From: Ramlibacter sp.
GTDB lineage: Bacteria > Pseudomonadota > Gammaproteobacteria > Burkholderiales > Burkholderiaceae_C
Direction: 5' to 3'
Assembly: GCA_023701085.1 (NCBI GenBank)
Contig: JAMPXR010000037.1
Span: 1-11,395 of the forward strand
Length of the DNA stretch: 11,395 bases
Both the position numbers and the translations under genes were made by a program. The notes beneath the pieces were generated by a model. The model made no database searches, was not told the DNA's origin, and worked only from the letters and a program-made list of their open reading frames with translations. Below are positions 3,886 to 11,143 of the stretch, in pieces (position 1 is the stretch's first letter; each line of letters begins with the position of its first letter).

Positions 3886-4563
3886 ATGACAACTGTCATG
3901 CAACGCCGCAGCGCGGCTCTCGCACTGTCCCTGGGCCTGGCGGCGGGCCTTGCCGCCGCCCAGGACGCGCCCAAAGTGAAGTTCGCCACCACGGCCGGCG
4001 ACATCGTCGTGGAGGTCTATCCCGACAAGGCGCCCAAGACGGTGGAGAACTTCCTGCAGTACGTGAACGACAAGCACTACAACGGCACGATCTTCCATCG
4101 GGTGATCGACAACTTCATGATCCAGGGCGGCGGCTTCGACACCAGCTACATCCAGAAGCCGACACGGCCCGCGGTGCGGCACGAGGGCCAGGAGGCGCTG
4201 GCCAAGGGCGGGCCGAAGAACGTGGTGGGGACGCTGGCGATGGCCCGCACCAGCGACCCCCATTCGGCCACGGCGCAGTTCTTCATCAATGTCAAGGACA
4301 ACACTTCGCTCGACCCCGTGGTCATCCCGCCGGGCGACCCGGTGCCCCGGTTCGAATACCAGGGCCGCGTCTACGAGAACGTGCAGCGCGCCCAGTTGCT
4401 GGCCTCGCCGCAGCTCTATGGCTACACGGTGTTCGGCAAGGTCGTCAGCGGCATGGACGTCGTCAACAAGATCAAGGCCATGCCCACCGGAGCGGGCGGC
4501 CCGTTCGGCAGCGACGTGCCCAAGACGCCGGTGGTCATCACGTCGGCGACGGTCGTCAAGTAA
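3886..4563 (+). CDS. ppiA: Periplasmic peptidyl-prolyl cis-trans isomerase (cyclophilin type)
   Basis: This cyclophilin catalyses proline isomerisation of exported proteins. It has 225 residues, with a signal peptide 1-25 (MQRR, then an Ala/Leu-rich core, cleavage near AAA|QD). Catalytic features are FHRVI at 70-74 (Arg72 corresponds to CypA Arg55), MIQGGGF at 78-84 and QFFIN at 131-135. Residues 143-178 form an insertion of about 25 residues, relative to the neighbouring PpiB, in the loop before YTVFGKVV. The loop tryptophan that follows QG in PpiB is replaced here by Leu-Tyr (LYGYTVF). Start ATG 3886 has AAGGAG 11 bases upstream; a second ATG at 3898 would also keep the signal peptide. The 134-base upstream gap holds no promoter I can defend. 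It is probably co-transcribed with ppiB, 21 bases downstream. Confidence 0.93.
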   Translation: MTTVMQRRSAALALSLGLAAGLAAAQDAPKVKFATTAGDIVVEVYPDKAPKTVENFLQYVNDKHYNGTIFHRVIDNFMIQGGGFDTSYIQKPTRPAVRHEGQEALAKGGPKNVVGTLAMARTSDPHSATAQFFINVKDNTSLDPVVIPPGDPVPRFEYQGRVYENVQRAQLLASPQLYGYTVFGKVVSGMDVVNKIKAMPTGAGGPFGSDVPKTPVVITSATVVK

Positions 4564-4584
4564 TCAAGGCAGAGAGGATCCATC

Positions 4585-5091
4585 ATGAGCAACCCACGAG
4601 TCGAACTCCACATCGCAGGCTACGGCGTCATCGCCCTCGAACTGGACCGGGACAAGGCGCCCAAGTCCGTCGCCAACTTCCTGTCCTACGTCGCCAAGGG
4701 CCATTACGACAACACGATCTTCCATCGCGTGATCCCGGGATTCATGATCCAGGGCGGCGGCTTCGAACCCGGCATGAAGCAGAAGCCGACCGACGCGCCG
4801 GTCGAGAACGAGGCCAACAACGGACTGAAGAACGCGAACTACACGGTGGCGATGGCGCGCACCCAGGCGCCGCATTCGGCCACGGCGCAGTTCTTCATCA
4901 ACGTGACCGACAACGAATTCCTCAATCACACCGCGCCCAGCGTGCAGGGCTGGGGCTATGCGGTGTTCGGCAAGGTCGTCGGCGGCATGGACGTCGTCGA
5001 CCGCATCAAGGGCGTGAAGACCGGGCGCAAGGGTTTCCACGACGACGTGCCCAACGACGACGTGGTGATCGAGAAGGCCGTCGCGCTCTGA
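4585..5091 (+). CDS. ppiB: Cytoplasmic peptidyl-prolyl cis-trans isomerase B (cyclophilin)
   Basis: The 168-residue cyclophilin has no signal peptide, so it should act in the cytoplasm on nascent or folding proteins. All core motifs are present: FHRVI 46-50 with catalytic Arg48, MIQGGGF 54-60, QFFIN 102-106 and Trp123 in [11 protein letters not shown]. Length matches E. coli PpiB (164). An AGAGGA Shine-Dalgarno lies before the ATG, 21 bases after the ppiA stop, so the two form an operon and look like a tandem duplication whose copies specialised for two compartments. Several nucleotide blocks over the active site are nearly identical between the two genes (see findings). Confidence 0.95.
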
Positions 5092-5111
5092 AGTCCCGCG
5101 GGCGCAGCGTC

Positions 5112-5876
5112 GTGAACGGAGTGCCCCATATCGCCGAACTGCAGGCCCCGCCGTCCTGGCGCGCGGCGGACTTCATCTCCGACCTGCACCTGCACGCCGA
5201 CGATCCCGCCACCTTCGAGGCGTGGCGCCGCTACATGCTGGGCACCCCGGCGCAGGCCGTCTTCATCCTGGGCGACCTGTTTGACGTCTGGGTCGGCGAC
5301 GACGCGGCTGGCGAAGCAGGCTTCGACGCCGATTGCGCCGCGGTGCTGCGGTCGGCAGCCGCGCGGGCCGCGGTGTTCTTCATGCACGGCAATCGCGACT
5401 TCCTGGTCGGCGACGGCTTCCTGCGGTCCTGCGGGGCCACCTTGCTGCCCGATCCCACGGTGCTGGGCTTTGCGGGCGTGCGCTGGCTGCTGACGCACGG
5501 TGACGCCTTGTGCCTGTCGGACACGGAGTACATGCGTTTTCGCGGGCAGGTGCGGGCGCCGGCCTGGCAATCGGAGTTCCTGGCCAAGCCCCTGGCGCAG
5601 CGCCGCACGCTCGCGCGCGGCCTGCGCCAGCAAAGCGAGGACCGCAAACGGTCCGCCGTCGAGTACCCCGATGTGGACAGCACGGCCGCCGCCGCGTGGC
5701 TCGAAGCGGCCGACGCGCAGGTGCTGATCCACGGACACACGCACCGGCCCGCCGACCATGAGCTGCACGGGCGCAGGCGCATCGTGCTGTCCGACTGGGA
5801 CGCGCGTAGCGAGCCGCCGCGGCTGCAGGTCTTGCGTCTCACGCCGGACGGTGCCCGGCGCGTCGCCCTCTGCTGA
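5112..5876 (+). CDS. lpxH: UDP-2,3-diacylglucosamine diphosphatase
   Basis: LpxH hydrolyses UDP-2,3-diacylglucosamine to lipid X and UMP, the fourth step of lipid A synthesis, at the inner face of the cytoplasmic membrane. The 254-residue protein is a calcineurin-like metallophosphoesterase. Metal ligands are readable: Asp24 and His26 in SDLHLH, Asp55 in GDLFDVW, Asn94 in GNRDF, His129 in THGD, and His209/His211 in HGHTHRP. Spacing agrees with the E. coli enzyme. The start is GTG at 5112, 20 bases after ppiB; its Shine-Dalgarno is poor, and a second GTG at 5121 is an alternative. It probably belongs to the ppiA-ppiB transcript. Its TGA shares one base with the ATG of the next gene, suggesting translational coupling. 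Confidence 0.95.
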   Translation: MNGVPHIAELQAPPSWRAADFISDLHLHADDPATFEAWRRYMLGTPAQAVFILGDLFDVWVGDDAAGEAGFDADCAAVLRSAAARAAVFFMHGNRDFLVGDGFLRSCGATLLPDPTVLGFAGVRWLLTHGDALCLSDTEYMRFRGQVRAPAWQSEFLAKPLAQRRTLARGLRQQSEDRKRSAVEYPDVDSTAAAAWLEAADAQVLIHGHTHRPADHELHGRRRIVLSDWDARSEPPRLQVLRLTPDGARRVALC

Positions 5877-6640
5877 TGTTCGACTGGCTGCGAAAGCGCC
5901 GCGCCGCGCCCGAGATTCCCGACCGGTTGTGGGCCAAGCTGCTGGCCCGCTATCCGTTCCTGTCGTCGCGCCCGAGCGCCGAATTGACGCGCCTGCGCCA
6001 GTTTGCCGCGCAGTTCCTGGCGAGCAAGGAATTCCATGGCGCCAACGGCCTGGTGATCACGGACGCCGTCGCTTTGGCCATCGCGGCGCAGGCCGTGCTG
6101 CCGGTGCTGAACCTCGGGCTGGCCTGGTACGACGATTTCGTGGGCATCGTCGTGCACCCGGGCGAGGTGCTCGCGCGCCGAACCGTCACCGATGAACTCG
6201 GCGTGGTGCACCACTACGACGAGGTGCTGGCGGGCGAGGCGATGGAGGGCGGCCCGGTCATGGTCAACTGGATCGACGTGGACAGCGCGGGCAGCACCGC
6301 CGAACAGGGCTACAACGTGGTGATCCACGAGTTCATCCACAAGATCGACATGCGCGACGGCGCGCCCGACGGCTGCCCGCCGCTGCCCACGCGCGCGGCG
6401 CGCGAAGCCTGGCTGGCCGTGATGCAGGCCGAGCACCAGGCTTTCCGCGAGAAGGTCATCATCGCCGAGCGCTTTGGCGGACAGCCCACCTGGCTGGACC
6501 CCTACGGCGCCAGCGCGATCGACGAATTCTTCGCCGTCGCCTGCGAAGCCTATTTCGTGAACCGGCGGCGCTTCGACGCCGAGTTCCCGGCGCTCGCGCC
6601 GCTGCTGGACGGCTTCTTCGAACCCGGGCGGTCCGGTTAA
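5876..6640 (+). CDS. mtfA: MtfA-type zinc-dependent peptidase (M90 family)
   Basis: The 254-residue protein has the gluzincin-like site HEFIH (151-155), in which two histidines bind zinc and Glu152 is catalytic. Glu217 in DEFFAVACEAYF (216-227) is the likely third ligand. E. coli MtfA is an aminopeptidase-like enzyme that also binds the repressor Mlc and so affects the glucose PTS. Whether that link exists in this lineage is unknown, so only the peptidase assignment is firm. There is no signal peptide, so it should be cytoplasmic. The start overlaps the lpxH stop (TGATG). The stop TAA at 6638-6640 interlocks with the stop of the convergent DUF349 gene. It is the last gene of the plus-strand run beginning at ppiA, with no terminator in between. 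Confidence 0.88.
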   Translation: MFDWLRKRRAAPEIPDRLWAKLLARYPFLSSRPSAELTRLRQFAAQFLASKEFHGANGLVITDAVALAIAAQAVLPVLNLGLAWYDDFVGIVVHPGEVLARRTVTDELGVVHHYDEVLAGEAMEGGPVMVNWIDVDSAGSTAEQGYNVVIHEFIHKIDMRDGAPDGCPPLPTRAAREAWLAVMQAEHQAFREKVIIAERFGGQPTWLDPYGASAIDEFFAVACEAYFVNRRRFDAEFPALAPLLDGFFEPGRSG

Positions 6641-9354
6641 CGCCTCAGCAGCGCCTTCAGCGCCCCTTGCAGGCGACGAGCCGCGCCGGCCTCATAGGCG
6701 CTGTTCAGCGCGCGCGCCGCGTCCTGACCCCAGGTCTGCGCCGGGGAGGGATCGTTGCGGCGCGTCAGCAACTGCAGCTGCAACGCGCGCCGCGCGCCCA
6801 GGTGCTCGGCCGGCGTCGGGGCTTCGGCGGCGATCTCCAGCCGCAGCAAGGCCTCCGACGCGTCGCCGGACGGCGCGGCGCCCAGGGCCTGGATCCAGCT
6901 GCTGCGGACCGCCGGCGCCACCGACTTGCCCAGCTCCTGCAGGCTCGGCACCTGCTCGGGTGTGCGCTGCTCCCACGCGCTCATGAGCTGGGTGAGCGCT
7001 TCGCCATGGGCCTGCGCGGCGAGTTTCTTGAGCGTCACCTGCGCGTGCTCGAGCGCGTCGCGCTGGGCCCGGAACGCCACGTCGCCCAGCCGCGGCCCGC
7101 GGTCCTCGAATGGCGGCCGCTCGCCCGAACGCCCGAAACCGACGCCCGGACGATCATCGCGGCGCTCGCCAGGCCTGCCGCCCGGCCCGCCCTTGCGGTC
7201 GCCGAACCTGCCCCCTCGCCCGGCGGGCGCCGGCTCGGTCTTCTTCATGCCGGGACGGTCGTCGCCTCGCATCGCGATGACGGGCTTGGGCGCCGGCTTG
7301 GGCGGCGCGGCGGGTTCGGCCGGCGCCGCGCCGTCGGACTCGGGTGTCTCAGCGGGCGCGGCTTGCGCCTGCGGCACAGCCTCGGCGCTTTCGGCCGGCT
7401 GCGCTTCGCTGGCCTGGCTGGCGGCCGCGACAGCGGCGGCGGCCTGGGCCTGGCCGCGCAGCGCCGCTTCCAGTGCGGCCATCGCCGACTTGATCGCCTG
7501 CGCGTCGCCCTTCGCGTTGGCCGCTTCGAGCGCCTTGGACGCTTCCAGCACGACCCGGTCGCGCTCGCTCAGGGCGGCGGCCGCCCTCTCGCGCTCTTCG
7601 CCCTTGCGGTTGAAGGCGTCGTCTATGGGCTTGCGGAAGGCGTCCCACAGTTTCTGCTCGTGCTTGCGGTCCAGCGGCACGGCCTGGGCTTCGGCCTGCC
7701 ATCGCTGCTGCAGGGCCTTGACGGCGTCGACGCGCAGCTGCGGCGCCCCGCCCAGCGCCTTGGCCTCGTCGATCATCGCGTGGCGCCGCTCCAGGCTGTC
7801 CTTCTGGATGACCTCCAGCGGCGCCGCCGCGGCCTGCATGGTTTCCTTCCACAGCGGCTGCAGTTCCGCAAAGGCTTTCTCGCTCAGGTGGCCGGCCTCG
7901 CGCCAGCGGCTTTCGAATTGATGGAGGATGCGGTTGAAGCCCTTCCAGTCGCCGTCCTTGGCCGTCCGGTTGTCGGCGGCCCAGGCTTTCACCTCTTCGA
8001 CCAGCGCCAGACGCTGGGCCCGGTGTTCGGCCGCTTCCGCCTTGACCTTGTCGAGCCAGCTTTCCACCACCTTGTGGGCTTCGTTGCAGGCATCGTCGAA
8101 GCGTTTCCACAAGGCATGGTTGGGAACGCCGCCCTGGTCGGTTTGTTTCCATTGCTCGCGCAAAACGCGCAACTGCTCCTGCATCTTGCGCCCGCCATAG
8201 CGCGGCTTGGGCGGCTGCGGTTCCTGACCTTCAACGGGCGCCGGCTGCTCGAACAGCGCCTCGGCCTTGGCGACGAGTTCCTGCCTGAGCTGGTCGGCGC
8301 GCCAACGCTGCCAGCCTTCCAGTTCTCCCGCGGCCGCCAGCGCCGCGTGCGCCTGGTTCTCGAGCCGGTCGTCGATCAGCTTGCCATGTTCCTTGAGCGC
8401 GTTGCGCAAAGCGGCGGCGGCGCCGGCACTGGCCTTGCCATGGCCCTGCGCGATTTCCTGCTCCAGCTTGGCCAGGACGTCGCGCACCGCCTGGGTGGCC
8501 TGGGCACGCACCTCGGGGTCGATCCGGGGCTTGGCGGGCTTGACCGGCACTTCCACGGCGACCCCGCGCTCCGCCCGCAGCTCGTCCGCCCAGACCGGAA
8601 CCGGCGGCAGCGGCGCGGATGCGTCCTGGGCGGCGGCCACCGCCAGCGCCAGCGCGCTCTGGAACGCGTCCCATACCGCCTGGAGCTGCGCGCGGGACGC
8701 TTCGAGCCATGGCGGAAACCGGTTGTCCACGCTCTGCCAGTTCGGATCCGCCACCAATGTCTGGGCCTGCGCCTGCCAGTCGGGCACGTCGGCCGCCAGC
8801 GCCTCGGTCGCGGCCTGCGCGTCGCGCCAGGACTTGGTGGAAAGCACCTCGATGCGCTGCGCCAGCAGCACAGCGGCCTCGCGCTGGACCTGCACCCGAT
8901 GCTGCAAGTCCTCGATGCCCTTGACCCGCTCGGCCAGTTGCGCCTTCAGCGAGGCCAGCGGCTCCCGGCTGAGCGGCGCGCCGGCCTTCGCGGCGTCGCG
9001 CTGCCACGCCATGGCATCGGCGATGTTCAGCTTCTGCTGCGCCAGCAGCCCACGGCCTTTCTCGGCCCACTCGGCAGCGATCGCTTCCTGGCCCTTGCTG
9101 CGCTTGATCTCGTCGAGCTTTTCGCGCAGCAGCTTGGCCGCGCCCTTGTCGCGGCCGCTGAGCTCGCGAAACACCTCCTGCATCTGCTCGGGGCTCGGAT
9201 TGGCGGACAGCCACTCGCGCACGCGCGCCGCGCGTTCGCCGGAAGTGGGTGCGGAGAACGCGCCGCCGGTCAGCGTATCGAGCGCGCGCGTGTCGTTGTG
9301 TTTGAGGGTGGCTTGGGTCACAGGTCTTTTTGGATCGTTGAGCGAATGCCCCAT
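6637..9354 (-). CDS. Large DUF349 domain protein
   Basis: The protein is about 905 residues, cytoplasmic (no signal peptide or membrane segment), helical and charged, and of unknown function. Three DUF349-type repeats (W, then about 15 residues, then LW..F) can be seen near 395-430 (LREQWKQTDQGG, LWKRFDDACNEAHK), 470-508 (FESRWREAGHLS, LWKETMQ) and 548-590 (LQQRWQAEAQAV, LWDAFRKPIDDAF). Earlier N-terminal parts are similar coiled, Ala/Gln-rich helices. About 670-765 is a disordered Ala/Pro then Arg/Gly/Asp-rich linker (GRGGRFGDRKGG, GERRDDRPG), followed by a helical C-terminal domain. The basic linker hints at nucleic acid binding; that is inference. The start is uncertain: ATG at 9354 is chosen, with GTG at 9414 (no Shine-Dalgarno) and GTG at 9321 as alternatives. 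A terminator-like hairpin and a structured RNA lie upstream. Confidence 0.85.
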   Translation of the reverse strand: MGHSLNDPKRPVTQATLKHNDTRALDTLTGGAFSAPTSGERAARVREWLSANPSPEQMQEVFRELSGRDKGAAKLLREKLDEIKRSKGQEAIAAEWAEKGRGLLAQQKLNIADAMAWQRDAAKAGAPLSREPLASLKAQLAERVKGIEDLQHRVQVQREAAVLLAQRIEVLSTKSWRDAQAATEALAADVPDWQAQAQTLVADPNWQSVDNRFPPWLEASRAQLQAVWDAFQSALALAVAAAQDASAPLPPVPVWADELRAERGVAVEVPVKPAKPRIDPEVRAQATQAVRDVLAKLEQEIAQGHGKASAGAAAALRNALKEHGKLIDDRLENQAHAALAAAGELEGWQRWRADQLRQELVAKAEALFEQPAPVEGQEPQPPKPRYGGRKMQEQLRVLREQWKQTDQGGVPNHALWKRFDDACNEAHKVVESWLDKVKAEAAEHRAQRLALVEEVKAWAADNRTAKDGDWKGFNRILHQFESRWREAGHLSEKAFAELQPLWKETMQAAAAPLEVIQKDSLERRHAMIDEAKALGGAPQLRVDAVKALQQRWQAEAQAVPLDRKHEQKLWDAFRKPIDDAFNRKGEERERAAAALSERDRVVLEASKALEAANAKGDAQAIKSAMAALEAALRGQAQAAAAVAAASQASEAQPAESAEAVPQAQAAPAETPESDGAAPAEPAAPPKPAPKPVIAMRGDDRPGMKKTEPAPAGRGGRFGDRKGGPGGRPGERRDDRPGVGFGRSGERPPFEDRGPRLGDVAFRAQRDALEHAQVTLKKLAAQAHGEALTQLMSAWEQRTPEQVPSLQELGKSVAPAVRSSWIQALGAAPSGDASEALLRLEIAAEAPTPAEHLGARRALQLQLLTRRNDPSPAQTWGQDAARALNSAYEAGAARRLQGALKALLRR

Positions 9355-9483
9355 GGAGAGGCGAGCCCCTATTTTCGCCGCGAATCGGGCCCGGCCATCG
9401 GCCGCCGTAACCACGGCTCACAGAACGCCGGCCCACAACACGGACACAGGCAGGCGCAAACGAAAAGAGAAGGCGAAATGAGA

Positions 9484-9519
9484 AAGCCCGGACAGACGGC
9501 GAAACCGCCTGCCGGGCTT
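9484..9519 (-). terminator. Intrinsic terminator-like hairpin upstream of the DUF349 gene
   Basis: Read on the minus strand, AAGCCCGG and CCGGGCTT form an 8-bp stem enclosing a second GGCG-GTTT-CGCC stem with an asymmetric internal loop. The stem is followed by the pyrimidine-rich CTTTCTCATTT, a moderate U-tract. On the plus strand the stem is followed by GACGGC, so it is not a terminator in that direction. No gene precedes it on the minus strand, which is why a non-coding transcript is suspected. Confidence 0.6.
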
Positions 9520-9667
9520 GACGGCTGACTTACAGTCATATGCCGCCTGGGTTCGCAGACAGGGAGTATTGGTCCCTGAATGCGCCGGAGGCAACGGATT
9601 GCCTCCAAGAGGGGCCGGGGCTACCACCGGAGTGGCCCTACCGGCTGATTGCCCGATCGCTCGGACC
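9484..9667 (-). ncRNA. Candidate structured small RNA or DUF349 leader, unrecognised
   Basis: About 180 nt are bounded by a promoter and a terminator-like hairpin on the minus strand. In 5' to 3' order of the RNA, GCCGG/CCGGC (9641-9645 with 9583-9587) can close a three-way junction. Its two arms are GGGC-CAC-UCCG-GUG-(GUA)-GCCC and an 8-bp stem GGAGGCAA-UCCG-UUGCCUCC, both capped by UCCG. The last base pairs of that stem compete with the closing helix. Next comes CGCA-(UU)-CAGGGA-CCAAUAC-UCCCUG-(UC)-UGCG, then UGACU-GUA-AGUCA, then the terminator. Most stems are perfect in sequence. I do not recognise a known RNA family; 6S, tmRNA, RNase P RNA and SRP RNA do not fit. It could act in trans, or as an attenuator leader of the DUF349 gene, which begins about 130 bases downstream. 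Confidence 0.45.
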
Positions 9668-9672
9668 CCATG

Positions 9673-9701
9673 AAATTAGGTCAGTGACCCGCTCTTTTCA
9701 A
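9673..9701 (-). promoter_or_regulatory. Sigma70-type promoter for the candidate minus-strand RNA
   Basis: On the minus strand TTGAAA (9701-9696) is separated by exactly 17 bases from TAATTT (9678-9673). The -35 matches the consensus at 5 of 6 positions and the -10 keeps the key T, A and final T. The predicted start is near 9667-9666. The spacer contains the perfect palindrome GGTCA-G-TGACC (9679-9689 on the plus strand), a possible operator. Confidence 0.5.
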
Positions 9702-10116
9702 GCCCGACTTTTCAATGGCCGCTCATCCCGCGATTGCCGATATTGGCTTGACAAGCGCGCCGTGCCTGACCTTGAAAAACGGCGTGCAATACCGGGCTGA
9801 AAGTACCCCGCCCCTCTTGTTACACCACTTTTTTCGAGTGACTCGGGGTTTCGCGGGATTATTTTCGTATCGTGAGAAACTCGATGACGGCCGCAAGTCT
9901 CGGCGACCGCTGCCCGATAGAGCGAGAAACCCGGCAACCCTCGGCGGCATAGCGGCTCGATGCTACATTTTTAATAGCGTCTCAGGTCATGAGGAAGCGT
10001 CCGTCGGCCTCGTCCCACACCGGAAATGCCGTCCGGCCGACGTGAAATACTGCCGACCTTCGGGTAAATTGGCCCTCGCCCAGGTTAATTGTGAATAAGA
10101 ACGTAATTCAATATTC
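9702..10116. other. Non-coding stretch without a supported gene
   Basis: Composition is less GC-rich than the genes, and open frames here (9715-10098 plus; shorter ones minus) lack Shine-Dalgarno sites and the G/C third-position bias of their neighbours. Visible pieces are: perfect odd palindromes GCTTG-A-CAAGC (9746-9756) and CGAGT-G-ACTCG (9835-9845); an extended -10 box TGCTACATT (9961-9969) without a -35; an 8-bp stem CGTCGGCC/GGCCGACG (10002-10009 with 10035-10042) around a 25-base loop; and an AT-rich block 10083-10116 just before the next promoter that could serve as an UP element. None is enough to name a feature. Confidence 0.5.
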
Positions 10117-10333: not shown

Positions 10334-11143
10334 ATGACAGCGCTAACAAAAATGGCCCAGGGCCTGCGAACCTTCGCATCCGACGTCGCCCAGGGCTTTT
10401 TCGAAATCACGCACAACAGCTTTGCGCTCGTCGGCCTGGCTGTGGTGTTCTGCCTTGTCGGCCTCGTGGCGCGCCCGGACTTGCGCCAGGCCGGCGAGAT
10501 CGAGCTGCGCAGCTGGCTGCAGGCGCGGCAGATGGCCGCCGCCGGCATGCGCATCGAATTGGACGCGATCGAGCGGGCCACGGCGACGAATCTGCATGAG
10601 TTGCCCAAGCAGCAGGCCGCCGTCGCGTACTGGCTGAGCAAGAAGTACCGGGTCGCGCCCGAACCCGTCGGCGCCCTCGTGGCCGAAGCCTACGAGATCG
10701 GCGCGGACGCCAAGCTCGACCCCACGCTGATCCTGGCCGTGATGGCGATCGAGTCCGGCTTCAATCCCTTCGCCCAGAGCTCCGTGGGCGCCCAGGGGCT
10801 GATGCAGGTGATGACGCGTGTCCACAGCGACAAGTACGAGAACTTCGGCGGCAAGCTGGCCGCGTTCGATCCGCTCACGAACCTGCGCGTGGGCGTCAAG
10901 GTGCTGCAGGAGTGCATACAGCGGGCCGGATCGCTGCAGGCCGGGCTGAAGTTCTACGTGGGTGCGGCCAACCTGGGCGAGGACGGCGGCTATGCCGACA
11001 AGGTGCTGGCAGAGCATGCCCGCCTGAAACTGATCGCCGCGGGCCGATCCGTGCCGCTGGCGCAGCCGGCGATCATCCGCACCGTCGCGCCCAGTGCGGA
11101 GCCGCCGCCGGCGGAAGACAAGGTCGCAGCCGTATCCATGTGA
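10334..11143 (+). CDS. Membrane-anchored lytic transglycosylase (SLT domain)
   Basis: This enzyme should cleave peptidoglycan between MurNAc and GlcNAc to give 1,6-anhydro ends, from the periplasmic side. The 269-residue protein has an N-terminal transmembrane segment at about 29-46 (SFALVGLAVVFCLVGLVA) with no cleavage site, so it is likely an inner-membrane anchor. A helical region runs 52-125. The SLT domain begins near 120: catalytic Glu140 in MAIESGFNP (137-145) and GLMQVM at 155-160. The usual YNAG motif is replaced by FYVGAANLG. The C-terminal 25-30 residues are a Pro/Ala-rich tail. ATG 10334 follows AAAGGAAG at good spacing. It is transcribed from its own promoter with a long leader and is separated from glyA by the ZTP riboswitch. 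Family is secure; the exact cellular role is unknown. Confidence 0.92.
   Translation: MTALTKMAQGLRTFASDVAQGFFEITHNSFALVGLAVVFCLVGLVARPDLRQAGEIELRSWLQARQMAAAGMRIELDAIERATATNLHELPKQQAAVAYWLSKKYRVAPEPVGALVAEAYEIGADAKLDPTLILAVMAIESGFNPFAQSSVGAQGLMQVMTRVHSDKYENFGGKLAAFDPLTNLRVGVKVLQECIQRAGSLQAGLKFYVGAANLGEDGGYADKVLAEHARLKLIAAGRSVPLAQPAIIRTVAPSAEPPPAEDKVAAVSM

Follow-up and report, generated by a model that had tools for sequence, protein, structure and literature searches.

A strongly structured RNA of Ramlibacter and other Comamonadaceae, probably encoded by an independent small-RNA gene

6S RNA (RF00013) is shaped as a single long rod that carries a bubble at its center, and RNAs of the CsrB/RsmY/RsmZ type are non-coding RNAs built of multiple hairpins with a terminator. 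The sX13 RNA of Xanthomonas (RF02232) is strongly structured and acts through its loops independently of Hfq; in the passages of PMC3771888 that concern it, these are defined as CCCC/CCCCC apical loops and the gene is located at polA. From the Burkholderiales, the Burkholderiales-1 motif has been listed as a candidate RNA that is marked doubtful and carries no Rfam accession (Weinberg and others 2010, PMC2864571, table row).

The window analyzed here is the whole stretch of 11,395 nucleotides from Ramlibacter sp., a member of the Comamonadaceae. On its minus strand, the sequence TTGAAA-N17-TAATTT was followed by five hairpins (P1 to P5) and then by a GC-rich terminator hairpin. The features are as follows.

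10334 to 11143, plus strand: SLT-domain lytic transglycosylase gene (Pfam PF01464), the divergent neighbor
9708 to 9754, minus strand: conserved upstream block, from the alignment of 30 same-genus upstream regions
9673 to 9701, minus strand: promoter, read directly, with the -35 hexamer TTGAAA at 9696-9701, a 17-nt spacer and the -10 hexamer TAATTT at 9673-9678
9484 to 9668, minus strand: proposed non-coding RNA gene of about 185 nt, from fold, homologues and covariation
9651 to 9666, minus strand: hairpin P1 with a GNRA-type loop (GCGA in the window), from the same-genus alignment
9614 to 9645, minus strand: hairpin P2 with a UAGG/AGCC internal loop, from the alignments
9587 to 9606, minus strand: hairpin P3 with a UCNN-type loop (UCCG in the window) and a stem near GGARGCAA/UUGCYUCC
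9554 to 9584, minus strand: hairpin P4 with a GGAC-loop-CUCC apex and a variable stem, from the 50-sequence family alignment
9548 to 9553, minus strand: single-stranded linker AACCCA, from the family alignments
9520 to 9547, minus strand: hairpin P5 with an outer stem GGCGGC..GCCGUC and an inner GAC/GUC stem, from the family alignment
9480 to 9519, minus strand: intrinsic terminator, an AGCCCGG...CCGGGCU stem with a UUUCU tail (UUUCUC), from the alignment
6637 to 9414, minus strand: DUF349 gene (Pfam PF03993), a downstream and non-obligatory partner

Elsewhere in the window, two consecutive ORFs resembling cyclophilin-type peptidyl-prolyl isomerases and an LpxH-like ORF were read by eye at 3886-5876, and an M90 peptidase, MtfA-like, lies at 5876-6640.

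The first-pass annotation had described the locus as an undescribed structured RNA and had proposed a search of Rfam. With Rfam 15 at gathering scores, cmscan gave no match in the window, and at E ≤ 10 the locus drew only two weak matches, both on the plus strand. Together with the strong covariation and with a promoter and terminator kept in most homologues, this bears the description out. Among the top literature matches listed there was neither a description of this RNA nor an sRNA study of Ramlibacter, and the portions of PMC3110155 and PMC2864571 covered here give no account of it. In 54 distinct loci of relatives, the only Rfam matches above gathering scores, to ZMP-ZTP and to a single tRNA, lay outside the RNA. 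The ZMP/ZTP riboswitch lies beyond the SLT gene in many relatives (L096:2900-3029, L100:176-307 and L206:3431-3560) and has no match inside the window. At L229 a tRNA gene (1514-1595) stands upstream of an RNA without P2, with no SLT, DUF748 or DUF349 match nearby.

As a working analogue, sX13 comes nearest, both RNAs being strongly structured and built of hairpins. Unlike sX13, the window RNA is without CCCC loops, has more hairpins and sits at a different locus, and the sX13 model did not match the window. One distant homologue, L151, scored 33.2 bits against that model, short of the required gathering score of 50; about 39 model positions are skipped in this alignment, which covers P5 and the terminator hairpin, and homology was ruled out as a likeness of these two elements. 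The RNA shares with 6S RNA its size class, single copy and own promoter, but consists of separate hairpins in a row with no long rod. With the CsrB/RsmY/RsmZ type it shares the multi-hairpin form with a terminator, but in its family GGA is hardly exposed in loops. Burkholderiales-1, listed for the same order, may or may not be the same RNA. We place the RNA as a new family within a known class, the intergenic structured small RNAs.

The minimum free energy of 9484-9668 on the minus strand was -101.9 kcal/mol, compared with -74.6 ± 4.3 kcal/mol in dinucleotide shuffles (n = 200), none of which was as good (z = -6.3). The stems named in the earlier reading, two UCCG-capped arms, CAGGGA/UCCCUG and UGACU/AGUCA, are present at their places and are conserved far beyond chance. 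The three-way junction that it had also drawn did not hold up: the closing stem GGGU/ACCC of the multiloop in the window's minimum free energy fold is not conserved, with 66% of cells paired and 122 of 500 shuffles as good.

The same-genus alignments (A1/A2) contain 29 of 30 loci, with L015, the one same-genus locus from which P5 is absent, left out. The RNAalifold structure of these 29 sequences has 51 pairs, 28 of them with compensatory changes. The fraction of cells paired was 95.8% versus 90.6% in shuffled alignments, and none of 500 shuffles reached any of five measures. Slid controls were 33-47% paired, a comparison tilted in favor of the structures since these came from the same alignments. 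A family alignment of 30 sequences (A4), drawn from the 48 sequences of A3 and omitting L085, L095, L101 and L103 for their different P2 and others as further same-genus sequences, had compensatory changes in 22 of 42 pairs. In an alignment of 50 diverse family sequences (A6; 50 of the 75 prepared), this was true of 21 of 28 core pairs. The same hairpins were seen again in both of these wider alignments, and in each, none of 500 shuffles was as good. Covariation in homologous intervals, a check also proposed at first pass, was found within the genus and across the family.

Individual hairpins differ in what they conserve. P1 showed a compensatory change in all 6 pairs, with 100% of cells paired in the 29 same-genus sequences, and its loop, as read from the alignment, fits GNRA in 28 of the 29 rows. 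P2, a short hairpin in the genus, is extended in many other genera and absent from L214 and L229. By eye, its internal loop comes in two forms, UAGG/AGCC and CAGU/GGCC; several other genera share the second form with locus L012 of the window's genus. P3 had 100% of cells paired in the 29 same-genus sequences and 99.0% in the 50 family sequences, and the A-U pair under its loop is invariant in all 50 core sequences. In L214 and L151 the P3 stem was re-made through paired changes with the A-UCNN-U apex kept, and some family members carry UACC-type variants of the loop. In P4, all 11 pairs showed a compensatory change and 77.2% of cells were paired (50 family sequences); the C at either end of its loop is nearly invariant and GGAC..CUCC is found in most members. 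The CCC of the linker is common to many, not all, family members. The outer stem of P5 had 99.3% of cells paired and the inner stem 78.6% in the 50 family sequences. The apical loops of P1 to P4 in the window are GCGA, UCCG, UCCG and CCAAUAC. A CAAUCUC repeat in the P3 and P4 loops was dropped as a tandem seed, at least two ATCTC being found in only a few of 98 homologues. These 98 are the homologue set used throughout, which excludes L015 and L235 as unconfirmed by covariance model R2.

The promoter pair of the first-pass annotation was read at 9673-9701 of the minus strand. TTGNAA-like and CTANNTT-like hexamers are kept in most of the 30 same-genus upstream regions, and promoter-like hexamers are present at most family loci of the family alignment. 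Counted by hand, the -10 hexamer TAATTT matches TATAAT at 3 of 6 positions, and judged by consensus the promoter is a weak one. The 5' end of the RNA gene, near 9666-9668, was placed from the position of the -10. Upstream of the -35, the conserved block has three parts, TTGTCAAG-N-CAAT at 9742-9754, GCAATCGC within 9725-9738, and ATTGAAAAG at 9708-9716 (also written ATTGAAAA), and its conservation suggests a putative site for an activator or other factor. At the other end, the 7 outer pairs of the terminator are invariant in 29 of 29 same-genus sequences. A terminator-like hairpin with a T-run recurs in 88 of the 98 homologues compared with 18 of 98 mononucleotide-shuffled copies, in agreement with the hairpin and U-rich tract reported earlier. 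With regard to the long 3' poly-U tail of Hfq-class sRNAs, the 3' tails are mostly UUUCU, and a few of the 98 have at least 5 U. Since a plain consensus scan of the locus listed neither promoter nor terminator, both calls rest on conservation.

Nucleotide search recovered the RNA from the window's own assembly and from 31 of 36 same-genus genomes, and from none of 24 genomes belonging to other families. Covariance model R1 found it in 33 of the 36 (50 best candidates scored per genome) and gave matches in 91 of 250 genomes of the window's family. The core model R3 matched 152 of 399 sampled family genomes, belonging to 61 of 141 genera. Every matching genome of both family sets had a single match. 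Among sampled genomes of the order, R3 had matches in 9 of 12 from the window's family and in 0 of 387 from other families. Sampling the class gave 3 matching genomes, which all belong to the window's family, and no match in the remaining 271. The same-family/other splits (12 + 387; 9 + 291) take the list of non-matching genomes as sorted by kinship. The exact genus-form P2 pattern occurred in 33 stretches, all from Ramlibacter, Caenimonas or Comamonadaceae/Burkholderiales assemblies; Ramlibacter cellulosilyticus and Caenimonas koreensis are among them.

Weaker R1 matches were confirmed by R2 at 39 of 40 loci, all but L235, and were backed by position, with an SLT gene on the divergent side at 37 of the 40. 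Weak R2 matches, with E from 2.4e-4 to 0.0095, also turned up in 6 of the 291 genomes from other families and were taken as chance; the 0/387 sample of R3 need not include all six of these genomes. An SLT-anchored scan in other families gave no RNA: an SLT match was present in 9 of 28 genomes, and the best E over the 10 loci covered was 0.11. Four opposite-strand matches over the RNA (E 0.002-0.005) are mirror images of its hairpins and were left uncounted. Within the family, 247 of the 399 sampled genomes had no R3 match; the large-set searches score about 9-15 best candidates per genome, and a non-match there is not equal to absence. When 24 SLT loci from non-matching genomes were searched with filters off, only 3 reached E ≤ 0.01. 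Given these two results, the RNA is neither universal in the family nor indispensable to it.

The most constant neighbor is the SLT gene, found at 55 of 58 and 37 of 40 RNA loci. The downstream side varies more. DUF349 lies within about 1.5 kb downstream at 37 of 58 loci, 29 of which are from the window's own genus. At 39 of 63 loci from other genera, the first gene downstream is of the DUF748/AsmA type, with a product of 1,259 aa in L176, and DUF748 adjoins the RNA in 17 of 20 longer downstream stretches. At L195, only a DUF748 remnant is left between the RNA and DUF349, a C-terminal piece of 49 residues at 556-702 ahead of DUF349 at 910; it is a trace of the deletion that put DUF349 beside the RNA. 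The next gene is a convergent DUF1841 at L224, L226 and L228, and a convergent cytochrome c at L095 and L101, which have no SLT neighbor. Since the downstream gene differs among loci, the RNA persists while its neighbor changes.

To judge from the DNA, the locus has the marks of a trans-acting sRNA gene: its own promoter, an intrinsic terminator, and retention independent of its neighbors. We therefore consider, with good though not full confidence, that it is an independent small-RNA gene whose product is most likely a strongly structured trans-acting regulator. A sigma-70-type promoter, perhaps helped by the conserved upstream element, would start the transcript at the foot of P1, and an RNA of about 185-205 nt with five hairpins would end at the intrinsic terminator. 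The trans-acting reading is favored because conservation sits in the hairpins, the loop apices and one internal loop, with little in single-stranded stretches. Contact would be made through the A-UCNN-U apex of P3, the GGAC..CUCC apex of P4 or the ACCC linker, either by pairing or by protein binding. Pairing via the conserved apices or linker is our leading, still tentative, candidate for the regulatory step. Protein binding or titration is a possible one, and some other step appears unlikely; pairing through hairpin apices would be somewhat likelier than protein titration. Predicted pairing with the mRNAs of neighboring genes was no better than with shuffled targets, either for SLT (n = 84, mean z 0.2, 3 below -2) or for DUF748 (n = 19, mean z 0.39, 0 below -2).

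A doubtful but serious alternative is that the RNA, single-copy and specific to the family, acts in a ribonucleoprotein of a new kind, bound by a protein or controlling one, with a housekeeping-like or global role. It is considered because the apices and internal loops are kept although P2 can be lost and the stems change in sequence, a pattern shared with RNAs that a protein recognizes by their shape.

It is rather improbable that the RNA is a cis-acting leader or attenuator, possibly a riboswitch, with a terminator that is read through under certain conditions so that DUF748 or DUF349 is expressed. Such a leader would agree with the terminator-like hairpin kept in most homologues and with the same-strand DUF748 or DUF349 that lies downstream at 55 of 58 and 32 of 40 loci, and because of these genes some cis effect through read-through into them may exist. 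However, the RNA is not always upstream of and on the strand of one gene, and five loci have a convergent gene as the next one. Conservation is lacking in the closing stem of the multiloop, and the 3' strand of P2 resembles the 5' arm of the terminator, yet P2 changes in L028 and the terminator does not. The first-pass annotation had offered an attenuated leader of DUF349 as its second reading; as a general explanation this was ruled out by the DUF748, convergent DUF1841 or cytochrome c genes found downstream elsewhere.

A protein-titrating RNA of the CsrB/RsmY kind, which would bind CsrA/RsmA through GGA loops, is very unlikely. The multi-hairpin form and a mean of 2.8 GGA triplets per homologue (n = 98) are in its favor, but none of the 98 homologues had at least 3 fully unpaired GGA in its minimum free energy fold and only 14 had at least 1; with GGA mostly in stems, a CsrA sponge was ruled out. 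An identity as 6S RNA, or as a second 6S-type RNA binding RNA polymerase, is similarly improbable despite the length of about 185 nt, the own promoter, the single copy, and the lack of any other 6S match in the window's own assembly (81% complete). RF00013 did not match at the RNA locus, 31 of 36 same-genus genomes have a 6S match at another place, and the window RNA is a row of separate hairpins. The 6S RNA of the genus scores low: in only 9 of the 36 genomes does it pass the gathering threshold, and annotation pipelines may therefore overlook it.

It is highly improbable that the RNA is the message for a small protein or has a dual function: an AUGGARGCAAUC at the foot of P3 could serve as a start in many family members, but others have UUG, ACG, AAG or CCG there. 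The frame is also broken by single-base indels, the P3 loop differs between species by one base in the same-genus alignment, and homologue lengths, with ends set by the covariance model, fall into all three classes modulo 3 (18, 38 and 42; n = 98), which argues against coding. That the locus is not a gene and that its high G+C has given a chance fold or repeat is scarcely credible, being refuted by covariation and opposed by the slid controls, the single match per matching genome and the absence of R3 matches in the 387 other-family genomes of the order.

Soil, water and wastewater are common habitats of Comamonadaceae. A single-copy and strongly covarying RNA that is present in 61 of 141 sampled genera of this family and missing from Rfam 15 is a candidate for an Rfam entry, and it offers a tractable target for knock-out and pull-down. 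Because it was found in one family only, the RNA could serve as an example of the origin and establishment of a structured regulator within a single lineage.
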